In this document: in pieces, positions 9,176 to 39,455 of the stretch
Numbering within the stretch: position 1 is the stretch's first letter
Layout of the letters: every line of letters begins with the position of its first letter
NCBI RefSeq assembly: GCF_021654855.1
Contig: NZ_AP024202.1
Span: forward strand, 620,001 to 684,000
Direction: 5' to 3'
Length of the DNA: 64,000 nucleotides
Source: Thiomicrorhabdus immobilis
GTDB lineage: Bacteria > Pseudomonadota > Gammaproteobacteria > Thiomicrospirales > Thiomicrospiraceae
Translations under genes and position numbers: made by a program
The notes under the pieces: model-generated
Database searches by the model: none
What the model saw: only the letters and a program-made list of their open reading frames with translations
What the model was told of the DNA's origin: nothing

Positions 9176-10090
9176 ATGGAACTTTCAGAACAAAGAATTA
9201 CCCACCTAAAAAAATTAGAAGCCGAATCGATTCACATTATGCGAGAAGTGATTGCTGAGTTTGAAAATCCTGCAATGCTTTATAGTGTGGGAAAAGACTC
9301 TTCTGTTATGCTACATTTGGCTCAAAAAGCCTTTTATCCTGCTCCTCCACCCTTTCCATTAGTGCATGTTGATACGACTTGGAAGTTCAAAGAGATGATT
9401 GAATTTCGAGATCAGCGTGCAAAAGAGGTTGGTATGGAATTGATTGTTCATATCAACCCTAAGGGTAAAGAGTTGGATATCTCGCCTTTTGTGCATGGTT
9501 CTGGAATGCATACGGATATTATGAAGACGGAAGGCCTCCGTCAGATGTTGGATATTTATCAATACGATGCTGTATTTGGTGGTGCTCGAAGAGATGAAGA
9601 AAAATCTCGTGCTAAAGAGCGTATTTACTCGTTCCGCGATAAAAATCACCGTTGGGACCCTAAAAACCAACGTCCTGAACTATGGGATATTTACAATGGT
9701 CGCCACCAAAAAGGTGAATCAATTCGTGTGTTTCCTTTATCCAACTGGACTGAATTAGATATTTGGCAATATATCTATCTAGAAAGTGTGCCGATTCCTG
9801 ATTTGTATTTTGCAAAAGAGCGTCCGGTTGTTGAGTATGGCGGAACTAAAATTATGGTCGATGATGACCGTATGCCAGAAGAGTTGCGCAATACCGCCAA
9901 AATGGAAAAGGTTCGTTTCAGAACATTGGGTTGTTATCCGTTAACTGGAGCAGTACCTTCGGAAGCGGCGACATTACCTGAAATTATTCAAGAAATGCTG
10001 TTAACTAAAGTGTCAGAAAGACAAGGACGTTTGATAGATCACGATGAAGCGGGCTCAATGGAGAAGAAGAAGATTGAGGGTTATTTCTAA
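9176..10090 (+). CDS. cysD: Sulfate adenylyltransferase subunit 2
   Basis: The 304-residue small subunit of ATP sulfurylase makes adenosine 5'-phosphosulfate (APS) from sulfate and ATP in the cytoplasm. It has the PP-loop signature [14 protein letters not shown] near residues 41-54 and the family landmarks [16 protein letters not shown] and [13 protein letters not shown]. The length matches typical CysD. It normally pairs with CysN, which here is separated from it by an inserted four-helix-bundle gene and repeat arms. It opens the sulfate-activation cluster, divergent from the glycosyltransferase. The AT-rich gap before it (9095-9175) probably holds both promoters. Confidence 0.96.
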
Positions 10091-10105
10091 GCAGAACTTA
10101 GAAAT

Positions 10106-10137
10106 AAGTGAGTTAGTGGGCGGTAGGTAGTAAGCGG
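10106..10137 (+). repeat. GTAGTG-type low-complexity repeat, left arm
   Basis: This G/T/A-rich run reads AAGTGAGTTAGTGGGCGG and continues GTAGGTAGTAAGCGG. Its approximate reverse complement occurs at 10554-10583, so the two form inverted arms around the four-helix-bundle gene. Similar arms recur at 13791, 14473 and 15344. Confidence 0.65.
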
Positions 10138-10165
10138 CATTAGTTTTTAAACTAAGGTTATTTTA

Positions 10166-10519
10166 ATGAAATGTGAAACATTGGATGTTTGGAAGCGAAG
10201 TTGCCGTTTATCCGTTGAGGTTTACAAGTATTTTGCGGACTGCCGAGATTTTGGATTCAAAGATCAAATTAATCGTTTTTCTTTATCTGTTCCTAGTAAT
10301 CTTGCTGAAGGTCTTGAGAAAGAGTCTGTAAAAGAGAATATTCGATATATTGAGATAGCAAGAGGTTCTGGTGCTGAGCTTCTTACACAAATTTATATTG
10401 CCATTGAGGTAGGTTATTTAGAAAAAACGCTAGGTCTTCAATGGAAATCTGAGATTAACCAAATTTCTAAAATGCTGAATGCATTAAAACAAAACTTAAT
10501 AGGGAGGATGGGAGAGTAG
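10166..10519 (+). CDS. Four-helix-bundle protein (S23 / 23S rRNA intervening-sequence protein family)
   Basis: This 117-residue all-helical protein matches the four-helix-bundle family encoded in 23S rRNA intervening sequences and related to DGR accessory protein Avd. Diagnostic features are the N-terminal LDVWKRSCRLSVEVYKYF, the central FGFKDQINRFSLSVPSNLAEGLEKES and the RYIEIARGSGAELLTQI helix. The biochemical function of stand-alone members is not established; nucleic-acid binding is suspected. It interrupts the usual cysD-cysN adjacency and is bracketed by inverted GTAGTG-type arms, which makes it look like an inserted cassette rather than an operon partner. Its reading direction would let the cys transcript pass through it. 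Confidence 0.85.
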   Translation: MKCETLDVWKRSCRLSVEVYKYFADCRDFGFKDQINRFSLSVPSNLAEGLEKESVKENIRYIEIARGSGAELLTQIYIAIEVGYLEKTLGLQWKSEINQISKMLNALKQNLIGRMGE

Positions 10520-10553
10520 TTAAGGTTATGCAATGTGCTAGGAAAGTCAGCAC

Positions 10554-10583
10554 GGCTAACTACCCACTACATACTGCCCACTT
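10554..10583 (-). repeat. GTAGTG-type low-complexity repeat, right arm
   Basis: On the minus strand this reads AAGTGGGCAGTATGTAGTGG and continues GTAGTTAGCC, an inverted partner of 10106-10137. It ends 6 bases before the cysN start. Confidence 0.65.
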
Positions 10584-10589
10584 AAAAAA

Positions 10590-12029
10590 ATGGCCGTAGA
10601 AAAAACTAATTTATTAGAAACGGATATCGAGGGGTATCTTAAGCAGCATGAAAATAAAGAGCTTTTGCGTTTCATCACTTGTGGAAGTGTTGATGATGGT
10701 AAAAGTACTCTTATTGGTCGTTTATTGCATGACAGCAAAATGATTTTTGAAGATCAGTTGGCGGCAATTAATAAAGACTCTAAAAAACACGGCACCACCG
10801 GCGAAGAGGTTGATTTAGCTTTATTGGTTGATGGTCTGCAATCGGAGCGTGAACAAGGTATTACCATTGATGTTGCTTATCGTTATTTTGCAACGGATAA
10901 ACGTAAGTTCATTATTGCCGATACTCCTGGTCATGAGCAGTATACGCGTAATATGGCGACAGGTGCTTCTACCGCCGATTTAGCGATTATCTTGATTGAT
11001 GCGCGTTATGGGGTGCAAACCCAAACACGTCGTCACAGTTACATTACCAGTTTATTGGGCACCAAAAACATTGTGGTTGCGGTAAATAAAATGGATTTGG
11101 TTGACTTTAGCGAGCAACGTTTTAATGAAATTAAAGCCGAATATACCGTGTTTGCAAAAGAGTTGGGTATTGAAAATCCAATCTTTAGCCCTGTTTCGGC
11201 TTTAACGGGCGATAACGTGGTAAACCCTAGTGAAAATATGCCTTGGTTTACGGGTAAACCGTTAATGCAGTTGTTAGACACCATTGAAATTGGTGATGAT
11301 ACTGATTTAGAGCATTTCCGTTTTCCTGTTCAGTATGTGAATCGTCCTCATTTAGATTTTCGTGGCTTCTGTGGCACCATTGCCGCAGGCAACATTGCAG
11401 TTGGTGATGCGATAACGGTATTGCCTTCGATGAAAACATCAACCGTAAAACAGGTGATTCAACCTGCTACCAATACCGATGATATGGAAGTGAAAAGTGC
11501 TTTTGCACCCATGGCCATTACTTTAACCTTGAATGATGAAGTGGATATTAGCCGTGGCGATATGATTGTTAAAAGTTCAGATGTCCCTCAAATCGCGGAT
11601 AATTTAGAAGTGATGTTGGTGTGGATGAACGAAGCAGCCATGCGTCCAGGTAATGATTACTTAATTAAGCGTGCAACCAACGTGACTACAGGACGTTTTA
11701 GTGCGATTGATTATAAAGTGGATGTCAATACTCTAGAGAAAACACCTGCTGAAAGCTTAGAGTTAAATGAAATTGCTCAATGTCAGCTAAGTTTGAATCA
11801 AATGATCTCATTTGATCCTTATGCTCAAATTAAAGGTACAGGCTCATTTATTGTGATTGATAAATATACCAATGCGACTTTGGCAGCGGGTATGATTGTG
11901 AATAAGCTTGATGCTGCTTCACAAAAAACTTTTACAAAAGAATATAGTGCGTTTGAACAAGATTTAAATGCTTTGATTAGACAACATTTTCCTGAATGGG
12001 AATGTAAATCTATTGCTGATGTTCTCTAA
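10590..12029 (+). CDS. cysN: Sulfate adenylyltransferase subunit 1 (GTPase)
   Basis: The 479-residue large subunit couples GTP hydrolysis to APS synthesis by CysD. GTPase motifs are clear: G1 [12 protein letters not shown] near residues 32-43, G3 [12 protein letters not shown], and G4 NKMDLVD, followed by EF-Tu-like beta-barrel domains. At 479 residues it ends after the EF-Tu-like domains and lacks a fused APS kinase, consistent with the separate cysC downstream. The start codon follows a short A-rich spacer and the right repeat arm, so its ribosome-binding site is poor. The arm may have replaced the original leader. Confidence 0.96.
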
Positions 12030-12053: not shown

Positions 12054-13775
12054 ATGACAACGCTGATTCTTCTATCAGTAGTTCTATTATTGGGTTTATT
12101 GGCCTGGGGTAAAATCCAAGCCTATAAACTTTTTATGGGAATCTTACTGCTGTATTATGCATTCGATTTAATTCCACTCGAATCAATGCTGCAGAACTTT
12201 GTTAACCCTGCTTTAGTGACCTTAGCGTTGTTATTAATGGTGAGTCAGGTTTTAGAAAAAACCAATTTTTTTCAACTGATTTCCAGTTACCTTATTAGAC
12301 CAAATGTACAAACATCTATTTTGAGAATGGGCGGGCTAGTCGGCTTTGGCTCTGCTTTTTTAAATAATACCGCTGTAGTGGCAACCTTAATGTCTTCAGT
12401 GGGTAAGTCTAAACAACATCCCCCTTCTAAACTTTTGATTCCTTTGTCATATATTGCCATTTTGGGCGGGACCATGACGCTGATTGGAACCTCAACACAT
12501 TTGATTGTGAATAGCTTTGTGGTTCAAGCTGGTTTGCCAGCTTTAGAGGTTTTTGACTTTTTTTATGTGGGGGTGGTTTTACTTGTTGTAGGCTCCCTGA
12601 CCATAGCGGTTTTAGCGCCGATTATTTTGCCTAAAATCAATATGGAACAAGTTCAAAGTAAGGACTACTTCATTGAAGCAAAAGTGTTGCCTGGTTCTGA
12701 AATCATCGGTAAAAGCGTTGAATCTGCTGGTTTAAGAAATTTAGAGGATTTGTATCTTGCCCAAGTGTTGAATGAGCAAGGTAGCGTAAAAGCCGTATCG
12801 CCAGAGTATATCATTCAAAACGGTGACCGTTTGATGTTTGCCGGTGATCCTAAAGCGGCATCTAAATTATTGTTAATTGACGGTGTGGTTTTGCCTGGTG
12901 CAGATGACTCTAAACGAATTGAACAACTTGTTGAAGTAGTAGTCTCTCATCAATCCACGTTAATTGGGCAAACCTTAAAATCGGTGAACTTCCGAAATAA
13001 ATTTGATGCGGCTGTGGTGGCGATTCGTCGAGGAGACGAGCAGTTGGATAATCGATTATCTGAGGTTGAGTTGCAAGCTGGCGATGCGCTTATTTTGACT
13101 ACGGGGCCAGACTTTAAAAAACGTGAAAACTTGGATAAAAACTTCTATTTTTATACCGAAGTGAACGCGCAACGTCATTTAAATACTAAAGAAAGCCTTA
13201 TTGCTAGTATTGGTTTTATTGTGGTGATTTTATTGGCCGCAATGAATGTATTACCTCTAATAAAAGGCCTGATATTTTTGCTGGGTGGATTTTTACTGTT
13301 TAAATTGACCAATTTCAATGAGGTGAGAAGGCGATTGCCTTTTGAAATCATTTTGATTGTTGGTGCGGCTCTTGGAGTGGCACAAGTGATGATGGATTAT
13401 GGGGTGGCTCAGCAACTTGCAGATTGGGTAATGTATGTGTTTAGCCCTTGGGGGTTGCTAGGTAGCCTTATCGGCGTGTATTTATTAACCATGTTGTTAA
13501 CCGAAATGGTTACTAATAATGCAGCTGCCGCATTGGGAATTCCCATTGCATTGGCAACCGCGCATGCCCTAGACGCAAGTGCAATGCCTTACATCATGAC
13601 AGTAGCTTACGCTGCAAGCGCGAGCTTTTTGACGCCTTATGGTTATCAAACCAATCTTATGGTTTACACCCCGGGTGGGTATCGGTTTTTAGATTATATA
13701 AAAATGGGGCTGCCAGTCAGTCTTGTTTATGGGATTACGGTAATCAGTCTCGTTCCCTTGGTTTTTCCGTTTTAG
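12054..13775 (+). CDS. SLC13/DASS-type membrane transporter with TrkA-C domains, probable sulfate permease
   Basis: This integral membrane protein of about 573 residues has an SLC13-like fold: helices at the N-terminus (about 1-190), two soluble TrkA-C/RCK-C domains (roughly 210-360), then further helices. Conserved patches are FLNNTAVVATLMS, GGTMTLIGTSTHLIVN and, in the second repeat, MVTNNAAAALGIP. Close relatives in cys clusters import sulfate, and its position between cysN and cysC supports that. An upstream in-frame GTG at 12051 exists, but the AGG at 12045-12047 spaces better to the ATG at 12054. Substrate is inferred from context. Confidence 0.82.
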   Translation: MTTLILLSVVLLLGLLAWGKIQAYKLFMGILLLYYAFDLIPLESMLQNFVNPALVTLALLLMVSQVLEKTNFFQLISSYLIRPNVQTSILRMGGLVGFGSAFLNNTAVVATLMSSVGKSKQHPPSKLLIPLSYIAILGGTMTLIGTSTHLIVNSFVVQAGLPALEVFDFFYVGVVLLVVGSLTIAVLAPIILPKINMEQVQSKDYFIEAKVLPGSEIIGKSVESAGLRNLEDLYLAQVLNEQGSVKAVSPEYIIQNGDRLMFAGDPKAASKLLLIDGVVLPGADDSKRIEQLVEVVVSHQSTLIGQTLKSVNFRNKFDAAVVAIRRGDEQLDNRLSEVELQAGDALILTTGPDFKKRENLDKNFYFYTEVNAQRHLNTKESLIASIGFIVVILLAAMNVLPLIKGLIFLLGGFLLFKLTNFNEVRRRLPFEIILIVGAALGVAQVMMDYGVAQQLADWVMYVFSPWGLLGSLIGVYLLTMLLTEMVTNNAAAALGIPIALATAHALDASAMPYIMTVAYAASASFLTPYGYQTNLMVYTPGGYRFLDYIKMGLPVSLVYGITVISLVPLVFPF

Positions 13776-13790
13776 ACAAAAACAGTGTGT

Positions 13791-13846
13791 AGTGAGTAGT
13801 AGGTAGTGAGTAGTAACGGCCCACTGCTAACTACTCACTGCTCACT
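13791..13846. repeat. GTAGTG-type repeat forming a hairpin, no gene inside
   Basis: The left arm 13791-13816 (AGTGAGTAGTAGGTAGTGAG, continuing TAGTAA) and the right arm 13820-13846 are largely inverted copies separated by only a few bases. It fills the spacer between the transporter and cysC. It looks like the two arms at 10106/10554 joined without the four-helix-bundle gene, much as a MITE relates to its parent element. Confidence 0.65.
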
Positions 13847-13868
13847 ATAAAATCAAAAAGAGTTTTTT

Positions 13869-14468
13869 ATGCAAGATAATGAAAATATCGTTTGGCATGA
13901 CCATCATGTTTCGCGAGCAGAACGCTCTGAAATGAAAAATCAAACACCATGCATATTGTGGTTTACAGGATTAAGTGGCAGCGGTAAATCTACGGTGGCA
14001 AATGCCGTTGAAAATTTATTGTTTCAAATGGCTAAACACACCTATTTGTTGGATGGCGATAATGTCCGCCATGGTTTGAATAAGGGGCTGTCGTTTTCAG
14101 AAGTAGATCGTGTTGAGAATATTCGTCGTGTGGGTGAAGTGGCCAAGTTGTTCAGTGATGCAGGGCTGATTGTGTTAACGGCATTTATCTCGCCTTTTGC
14201 CGCAGACCGAAATATGGTCAGAGAAATGACCAGGCCTGGTGAGTTTATCGAAGTGTTTATTGATACGCCTCTAGCAACTTGCGAACAACGAGATCCAAAA
14301 GGATTGTATAAAAAAGCAAGAGCTGGCGAAATCAAAGATTTTACTGGTATTGATTCACCTTACGAAGCTCCATCAAATCCAGAGATTCGCATTGTCAATG
14401 ACGGCATCTCTATAGACAATGCTGCACAACAAGTGATTGATTACTTAAAAGAGAATAAATACATTTAA
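13869..14468 (+). CDS. cysC: Adenylylsulfate (APS) kinase
   Basis: This 199-residue kinase phosphorylates APS at the 3' position to give PAPS, the sulfate donor for the sulfotransferases in this locus. It has Walker [15 protein letters not shown] near residues 35-48, the APS-binding [15 protein letters not shown], and [13 protein letters not shown]. The length matches stand-alone CysC. GTAGTG-type repeats lie directly upstream and downstream. The 12-bp palindrome ACCAGGCCTGGT falls in the gene at 14229-14240. No PAPS reductase gene is nearby, so this PAPS is probably meant for sulfation. Confidence 0.96.
14229..14240. repeat. Palindrome ACCAGGCCTGGT, copy 2
   Basis: This exact copy lies inside cysC, read in phase as Thr-Arg-Pro-Gly, a different phase from copy 1. 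Confidence 0.8.
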
Positions 14469-14472
14469 AGGA

Positions 14473-14536
14473 GTAAGTAGTGAGCAGTGGGTGGAATGCA
14501 TTTAATCGCAAACCACTTACTACTTACTGCCCACTA
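14473..14536. repeat. GTAGTG-type repeat forming a hairpin
   Basis: The left arm 14473-14494 (GTAAGTAGTGAGCAGTGGGT then GG) and the right arm 14513-14536 are inverted copies around an 18-base AT-rich loop. It fills the cysC-cysQ spacer almost completely. Confidence 0.65.
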
Positions 14537-14540
14537 GGTT

Positions 14541-15332
14541 ATGTTAGAAAAAATTAATGTACAAGATATTGTTGGGCTAGCTAAAAAAGCTGGCGAGGCC
14601 ATTATGGAAATTTATCAAAAAGATTTTGAGGTTGAGTTTAAGGCTGACGAATCTCCGTTGACTGAAGCAGATAAAAAGGCCAATGAAATGATTGTGACAG
14701 GCCTGGAAGCTTTAGGGTTGGGTATTCCCGTATTATCTGAAGAAGGTAAAAACATTCCTTATGATGAGCGTAAAGACTGGGAATATTTTTGGTTGGTTGA
14801 TCCTGTTGATGGCACGAAAGAGTTCGTGAAAAAGAATGGTGAATTCACAGTTAATATTGCTTTAATACATAAAGAAGTTCCTGTTTTAGGTGTAGTGTAT
14901 GCTCCGGCCTTAAATGAAACGTATTGGGCCAAAAAGGGTGAAGGTGCGTTTAAAGAACAAATGATTGCCGATAAAATGCAAACCTTTGCCTTGCCAAAAC
15001 AACAAAACAGAAAAGAAGGTGAACTTGTTGTTGTGGCCAGTAAATCTCATATGTCACCTGAAACAAAAACGTTTATTGATGAATATGCGGTTGACTATCC
15101 ATTGCTGACCACCCACTCAATAGGTAGCTCTCTAAAGATTTGTTTGGTAGCCGAAGGCGAGGCTGATATTTACCCAAGACTTGGGCCAACAATGGAATGG
15201 GATACTGGGGCGGCACATGCTGTAGTAATAGAGGCCGGAAAGACTTTTCAAGGTTATTCGATTGAAGATGGCTACTTTCCACATTTGTATAATAAAGAAA
15301 ACCTGTTAAATGCATGGTTTGTTGTTCAATAA
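14541..15332 (+). CDS. cysQ: 3'(2'),5'-bisphosphate nucleotidase (PAP phosphatase)
   Basis: This 263-residue member of the inositol monophosphatase family removes the 3'-phosphate from PAP, the product left after sulfotransfer, and so relieves product inhibition. Visible metal-site motifs are DESPLTEADKKAN near residues 35-47, LSEEGK, and the diagnostic WLVDPVDGTKEFVKKNGEFTVNIAL near 83-107, plus the C-terminal WDTGAAHAVVIEAG. The start follows a repeat hairpin. Its place directly after cysC fits a PAPS-production and PAP-disposal unit serving the sulfotransferases. Confidence 0.95.
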   Translation: MLEKINVQDIVGLAKKAGEAIMEIYQKDFEVEFKADESPLTEADKKANEMIVTGLEALGLGIPVLSEEGKNIPYDERKDWEYFWLVDPVDGTKEFVKKNGEFTVNIALIHKEVPVLGVVYAPALNETYWAKKGEGAFKEQMIADKMQTFALPKQQNRKEGELVVVASKSHMSPETKTFIDEYAVDYPLLTTHSIGSSLKICLVAEGEADIYPRLGPTMEWDTGAAHAVVIEAGKTFQGYSIEDGYFPHLYNKENLLNAWFVVQ

Positions 15333-15343
15333 TATGGTCTATT

Positions 15344-15453
15344 TAGTGAGTAGTGAGCAGTGAGTAGTGAGCAGTGAGCTAGTGGGCGTCTTTTAATCAA
15401 ATACTGTCGACTAACGCCAACAACCAATGACCAACGACTAATTAAGTGAGTAG
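15344..15453 (+). repeat. GTAGTG-type tandem repeat
   Basis: Bases 15344-15380 hold near-perfect tandem units of about 7-14 bases (TAGTGAGTAGTGAGCAGTGA and so on). The right part (15405-15440) is a diverged, CAA-rich inverted arm, and one more unit (AAGTGAGTAG) ends beside the next start codon. Confidence 0.6.
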
Positions 15454-38219: not shown

Positions 38220-39323
38220 GTGGATTTAAGACCTTTAGTAAGATCTTCATATTCGATAGAAGAGGTGATAACAAGATGGCAGACAGTTCATGAAGATTAC
38301 GATATAGACTACCTTCAGGAAAAAATTGCTTCTTGTGAAATTCGAGCGTATTTGAATCTCAAAAATTGTTATTTATTTCCAGTTGATGAAGTTGAAAAAT
38401 CTTATGATTACTTACAAATTTGTGATGTAACAGAAGGATTTGGATCAGAAATCATTTTTTCTTTTTTTGTAAAAAGTGGCATATTTGAATCATTACATAA
38501 CAAAACCATATATAAAAGTGAAATACAGGGTGACTTTCCAACAACATCACAAATTATTGGGAGTTTAATAATTCCTACGGATTTGGGTGTGATCAAAAAT
38601 ATATATCTATATCATATTATTAATAGTTGCGATTTATTAAATTCTAATTTTTCTATTGAGCAGTCAAGAGAGTCACTTGAAGGCCCTATACCTTTAAACT
38701 TGGATCAGCCAATTATTAAAGTTTCTGACTGTGGGCTTTCTGTAACTCCATGGTATCAAGTTGAGCCTCTGAGTGGTGCATATATTCCCAAAAATTCTAT
38801 ACCTGAGTCATTGGAGGTATTGAACTTATCACCCAAAAAATATGATTTTTTTGAAGATTGGCTTAGAAGTTGTCGAGTTGTAGAGCTGAATGGCAATTTT
38901 TATTATGTAGTTAATGAAAAAAATTATGAATTTGATGGGGGGATCTTGACTGGCTACTCTCTATCAGAAGATGTTTTGAATTCATATCAAGGCGAACAAA
39001 ATGTGGTGATCCTTAAAGAGGACCTAGAGGATTTTGAAAACAAAAATTTTTACAATAAGCCAGTATTGTTACCCAATTGTACTGAAAAAAGGGCTTTCGC
39101 CTTAAGCTCTAAAGATAAAACGTTAGAAATTCTGGTAACACTTGTAAATGAATTTGAAAATTCGACCGAACTTAAAAGGCAAGGTGTAAAAACAGAGCAA
39201 GGTTTTATAAAGTCTTGGATAGAATCTCAACCATATAAGTTGAAAGAACATCACGTAAGGATTTTAAAGGAACTTATAAGTGATAGATATGGAATAACAA
39301 CCAATAGAACTGAATCTTTATAG
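38220..39323 (+). CDS. Unrecognised cargo protein at the right end of the element
   Basis: This 367-residue protein starts with GTG behind a good AAGGAG site. I recognise no domain. The N-terminus (YSIEEVITRWQTVHEDYDIDYLQEKI) is helical, the middle is beta-rich, and the C-terminus (EILVTLVNEFENSTELK ... LKELISDRYGI) resembles DNA-binding-like helical tails of phage and element proteins. It is much more AT-rich than the relaxase gene before it. The stop overlaps the right arm repeat by one base, so it occupies the last usable site before attR, a common place for accessory genes. Confidence 0.6.
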   Translation: MDLRPLVRSSYSIEEVITRWQTVHEDYDIDYLQEKIASCEIRAYLNLKNCYLFPVDEVEKSYDYLQICDVTEGFGSEIIFSFFVKSGIFESLHNKTIYKSEIQGDFPTTSQIIGSLIIPTDLGVIKNIYLYHIINSCDLLNSNFSIEQSRESLEGPIPLNLDQPIIKVSDCGLSVTPWYQVEPLSGAYIPKNSIPESLEVLNLSPKKYDFFEDWLRSCRVVELNGNFYYVVNEKNYEFDGGILTGYSLSEDVLNSYQGEQNVVILKEDLEDFENKNFYNKPVLLPNCTEKRAFALSSKDKTLEILVTLVNEFENSTELKRQGVKTEQGFIKSWIESQPYKLKEHHVRILKELISDRYGITTNRTESL

Positions 39324-39340
39324 TTGACTATTTGTTGACT
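39323..39340 (+). repeat. Putative integrase arm-type site, right
   Basis: This is an exact 18-base copy of 18299-18316, here 64 bases inside attR and in the same orientation. Confidence 0.6.
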
Positions 39341-39403
39341 CGTTAAAAATAAAAAGGGTTATTTGAAAATTAAGGTTTTGCAATTTATTGAAATTGCATG
39401 AAA

Positions 39404-39455
39404 AATTGGTACGACCGAGTGGATTCGAACCACCGACCCCCACCATGTCAAGGTG
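39404..39455. repeat. attR within the intact tRNA-Val
   Basis: This 52-base block is identical to 18117-18168. It runs from four bases beyond the tRNA CCA end through the T arm and variable loop to the end of the anticodon stem, the classic site used by P4-like integrases. Confidence 0.9.

Follow-up and report, generated by a model that had tools for sequence, protein, structure and literature searches.

A four-helix-bundle IVP gene between inverted heptamer arms at the cysD/cysN junction of Thiomicrorhabdus immobilis

The insert between cysD and cysN and neighbouring hairpins

The window, a stretch of 64,000 nucleotides of the Thiomicrorhabdus immobilis genome (NZ_AP024202.1, positions 620,001 to 684,000), carries the host genes cysD (9176-10090) and cysN (10590-12029) on its plus strand, separated by an insert with an IVP (four helix bundle protein) gene on the same strand (10166-10519). 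The 117 codons of this open reading frame (ORF) encode a protein of 117 amino acids that matches PF05635 (E 5e-30; 104 bits against a cut-off of 33.8), TIGR02436 (96.7 bits against a curated cut-off of 24) and, as its best curated match, NF008912 (E 4e-48; 162 bits against a cut-off of 124). Its predicted structure consists of four helices (pLDDT 95), and the nearest folds are XCC0516 (2gsc, TM 0.89) and BT_0352 (2rld). The initial annotation, made from the letters alone, had placed a four-helix-bundle gene between cysD and cysN, and the PF05635/TIGR02436 matches and the confident four-helix model bear this out. The gene is present in a single copy in the 2.54-Mb genome; PHROG and PADLOC gave no match.

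The gene is enclosed by inverted arms. The left arm (10113-10138, plus strand) reads as the heptamers GTGGGCG, GTAGGTA and GTAAGCG, and the right arm (10554-10585), in its minus-strand reading, as GTGGGCA, GTATGTA, GTGGGTA and GTTAGCC. Their core (10115-10131 and 10566-10582) spans 17 nt, 15 of them complementary, and the arms run past it as degenerate heptamers over roughly 26-32 nt, in agreement with the approximate inverted arms of about 30 bases first described. Taken alone, these arms are suggestive only, because 36 of 4000 shuffles of the two intergenic stretches (~1%) scored at least as high. The window pair outscored all 64 swaps in which the right flank was taken from another locus, its heptamer phase is the one common to the family, and in the minimum-energy fold the two arms pair with each other, giving the terminal stem typical of an intervening sequence (IVS).

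Other repeats lie close to the arms. The end of cysD, including its stop codon (TTATTTCTAAG), is followed by an inverted copy (CTTAGAAATAA), and together these form a junction hairpin of 11 bp (10081-10107, plus strand) that is missing from the empty cysD/cysN sites of genus-mates. Junction hairpins of at least 8 bp were found at 20% of loci versus 4% of swaps; they could be marks left by insertion or could shield the upstream mRNA end. Inside the arms, a 9-nt direct repeat, TAAGGTTAT, flanks the IVP ORF (10150-10165 and 10520-10530) and is similar to the cysN leader of empty sites (TTAAGGTTATG). Such ORF-flanking repeats are not a general trait of the family, where they are just slightly commoner than in swaps.

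Heptamer hairpins without an ORF occur farther along the plus strand, at 13783-13847 between an SLC13-like transporter gene (ending at 13775) and cysC (starting at 13869), and at 14470-14534 between cysC (ending at 14468) and cysQ (starting at 14541). Past cysQ, an array of GTGAGTA/GTGAGCA units gives way to a weaker array of other units (15339-15446 in all, plus strand; the weaker part at 15417-15444). A degenerate pattern of the window heptamers has 14 matches in the genome, all in C1:611021-635380 (reversed control, 0), which comprise the arms, the two ORF-less hairpins, the post-cysQ array and two stretches in rfb genes left of the window. At that locus (L335, G000:C1:605001-620000) the heptamer-like stretches lie in frame in rfbB (QLLTTHHSLLTYV) and rfbD, and in another genome rfbB (L003) has a different, longer insert close to that position. 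Matches in the coding sequence of rfbB, rfbD and, in the genus-mate G042, cysQ may partly be coincidence. G042 also has hairpins of window-type units at its transporter/cysC and cysC/cysQ junctions, and G033 has a cysC/cysQ hairpin built of other units. No IVP homologue was found in either genome; a resident IVP gene is therefore not needed for the hairpins to persist. A third genome, G050, has short spacers. Elsewhere in the window, at 39314-39445, Rfam gave a match to the HPnc0260 antisense RNA that overlaps a tRNA gene of the opposite strand; its score scarcely passes the cut-off, and the match is probably spurious.

Heptamer arms across the IVP family

The sample of relatives comprised class-level loci, 80 loci from named genomes and 3 from cyanobacterial plasmids, and each was given an arm score by comparing the upstream flank with the reverse-complemented downstream flank. 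For the class-level loci (n = 65) the median score was 30, whereas swapped flanks, shuffles and segments lying 400 nt outward gave 16; 44 of the 65 exceeded the 99th percentile of shuffles, compared with 1 of 61 outer segments. Matching inverted arms were present in 61% of 146 loci at a threshold passed by 3% of swaps; the other ~39% had no arms over threshold under the settings used. A separately drawn phylum sample repeated the result (19/29 loci versus 1/29 controls). Arms are thus a general property of stand-alone members, which supports the initial annotation, and armless homologues are the minority.

The arms share a design and not a sequence. Flank identity peaks at lags 7, 14 and 21 only, and the peaks are absent further out; a phased AG is the top dinucleotide in 120 of 162 arms, giving a unit consensus of about YAAGDDD in which AG stands at a set phase and the remaining letters are free. 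The purine-rich, AG-type side is the left arm in 78 cases versus 6, so the gene almost always faces the same way relative to its arms. The two arms of one element match, whereas arm sequence varies from element to element, and a shared GTAGTG arm, which the initial annotation had suggested looking for, is not supported: the heptamer architecture alone is common. Left and right arrays differ in copy number independently of each other. Arms of near-orthologues in the Halomonadaceae are often interchangeable, and we therefore make no claim of compensatory change there. Judged from sequence comparison, the recurrence of this arm design around most IVP relatives, in rRNA genes as well as in ordinary operons, suggests a family of insertion elements that has gone unnoticed.

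Departures from the heptamer plan and additional arrays were also seen. At a second junction of genus g381 (L228-L238) the arms of the IVP genes have period 8 (AGTAGGGC, AGTAGGGG) and not 7. Long additional arrays lie next to IVP genes at L109, L127 and L132; in Psychromonas they consist of AAGGTTC-type heptamers, while the units are longer in Amphritea as well as in a relative.

Probable gain of the element and reuse of junctions

No IVP homologue was found in 31 genus-mates. cysD was matched in 14 of the 32 genus genomes (window genome counted), and at the readable cysD/cysN junctions of the genus-mates the two genes overlap or lie a few bases apart, the exception being G042 (L008 / L331), where the junction holds a gene that we take, from reading its translation, to be sulfotransferase-like. 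The closest proteins to the window IVP, about 70% identical, come from Campylobacterota, and the window IVP nests inside that clade in the tree. Its sister is L097 (support 87/84). The cysD genes of L097 and the window are 85% identical, so transfer of the whole cysD-IVP-cysN block is possible. The window copy looks recently gained, which partly supports the mobility first ascribed to it.

Repeated use of the same junction is seen on a wider scale. About 22 of 153 loci have an occupied cysD/cysN junction, and constraining 17 elements at this junction to one clade was rejected in the tree test (p-AU 8e-81). The test was preferred to a correlation of host and IVP distances, which for cysD gave r=0.07 with L108 entered in the wrong frame. 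The cysD/cysN junction has been filled several times, and the order cysD-IVP-cysN, although it recurs over long distances, does not trace one vertical lineage. The rpsI/tRNA-Gln junction likewise recurs as an IVP site; in two members of one genus rpsI is 89% identical while the IVPs at this junction are just 49% identical, and one of these two rpsI loci has arms near-identical to those of a member of another family (L031, L026). In genus g381 a single junction occurs in empty, IVP-filled and ORF-less states.

Relation to 23S intervening sequences and alternative readings

A degraded family member, L083, lies within a 23S rRNA gene, at what we take from the flanking sequence to be the helix-45 site, and its arms extend over 45 bp of CAGAAGA-type heptamers (score 50, against a shuffle maximum of 24). 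In Coxiella burnetii, the 23S IVS at helix 45 carries tandem GACAGAT heptamers, forms a stem of 28 bp and is excised by RNase III (PMC4990558). The window element agrees with it in protein family, in an ORF that lies in the loop closed by a terminal stem and in tandem heptamers by the ORF, and the lengths are similar, 428 nt for the Coxiella IVS (PMC4990558) and ~475-500 nt for the window element. Unlike the Coxiella IVS, the window insert lies between protein genes, its stem is shorter and less perfect, and cutting by RNase III is inferred only. The family-wide heptamer arms, the 23S copy and the Coxiella anatomy together imply that stand-alone copies share the anatomy of IVSs, and on this comparison of sequences they look like 23S IVSs set into operon junctions. 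The window holds no rRNA and the insert lies outside any 23S rRNA gene; the window copy is no IVS by its defining location, yet is IVS-like in build.

Other known systems share parts of this arrangement. RAYTs are HuH (Y1) tyrosine transposases. The RAYT/REPIN system (PMC3116915) is alike in outline, with a small gene between inverted repeats and ORF-less hairpins that carry its repeat, and here too ORF-less hairpins bearing the gene's own repeat occur at neighbouring junctions and, in g381, dispersed. The window protein, in contrast, is a four-helix bundle, and the gene within the arms matches PF05635 only and no HuH (Y1) transposase. Intergenic tandem heptamers have been described in Xanthomonas (GGGAATC) and Nostoc (GGGGA(C/T)T) (PMC4692102) and in Beggiatoaceae (TAACTGA; PMC4679880), and inverted pairs are frequent in Xanthomonas, where one genome holds 186 repeat sets with 70 such pairs (PMC4692102). 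Neither paper contains the terms S23, 23S or four helix. Avd of diversity-generating retroelements (4dwl, 8ub7) has the same fold but is a more distant match (TM-score 0.65-0.77) at Foldseek E-values above 0.05, and a search of the whole window genome with the RVT_1 profile matched no reverse transcriptase.

We consider it rather likely that the window harbours, in an operon junction, an insertion element of the 23S-IVS type: a hairpin of inverted heptamer arrays with an IVP gene in its loop. Since the element lies after the stop codon of one gene and before the start of the next, its cost to the host would be small. The arms are predicted to pair within the transcript, and RNase III would cut the paired arms, as it does those of the 23S IVS in Coxiella, which would let the insert persist. 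The IVP protein probably forms a pentamer, as its solved relatives do; it may bind the arms and aid spread to gene junctions, and ORF-less hairpins would be derivatives or sisters of the IVP element. More tentatively, IVP proteins could move, or could have founded, a widespread class of heptamer hairpins, in which case 23S IVSs, stand-alone IVP genes and orphan heptameric repeats would form one mobile family with the IVP copies as its coding members; we regard this extension as possible but doubtful.

A somewhat unlikely alternative is that heptamer hairpins form an independent repeat class, spreading by themselves or arising by slippage at junctions, and that the IVP gene is a passenger in pre-existing hairpins. 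This would account for the hairpins of G042 and G033, where no IVP homologue was found, for the many dispersed ORF-less AGTAGGC hairpins of g381, for arrays that vary as tandem repeats do, and for the inverted pairs of Xanthomonas. It fits poorly with arms at most IVP loci in several phyla, with the nearly fixed orientation of the gene between them, and with the one case (L031, L026) in which arms move with the protein lineage. In a second alternative the arms are terminal inverted repeats of a miniature transposon at the DNA level, recognized by a transposase acting in trans, for which the inverted ends, the lack of an enzyme gene of its own, the ORF-less copies and the clean empty sites could all be cited. 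The elements, however, share only a 7-nt pattern and no conserved terminal sequence, they adjoin stop codons, and comparison with empty sites of 82-84% DNA identity in the genus or up to 97% in g381 showed no target-site duplication. We regard this reading as unlikely. The initial annotation had proposed a non-autonomous unit mobilized in trans; its arms and recent gain are supported, while mobilization in trans is not: the genome gave no RVT_1 match, no clear target-site duplication was seen, and no mover emerged.

Still less probably, IVP is a domesticated regulator that, by binding the heptamer hairpins of the cys operon mRNA, adjusts the expression of cysD, cysN, cysC and cysQ. Hairpins of one unit type are confined to 24 kb of the 2.54-Mb genome and occupy successive junctions of the cys operon, as a regulator would lead one to expect, but G042 retains hairpins with no IVP homologue found, and several genus-mates have the cys operon with neither IVP nor hairpins. 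The cysD-IVP-cysN order in several lineages would suit an operon gene of the usual kind, inherited vertically and with inverted repeats due to chance, but this reading is scarcely credible against the empty sites in the genus, the one-clade rejection and the arm statistics across the family.

IVSs are already known, and so are the IVP fold and heptameric repeats; for papers joining IVP genes to heptamer arms outside Coxiella, our search, with subscription literature mostly outside it, returned none. On the reading of an IVS-type element in an operon junction, the inverted heptamer arms, with their phased AG and fixed orientation, tie rRNA IVSs to stand-alone IVP genes and are a candidate binding site for the IVP protein. 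The occurrence of one junction in empty, filled and ORF-less states offers material for experiments, and the unexplained heptameric repeats of other bacteria perhaps fall within the same shared architecture.
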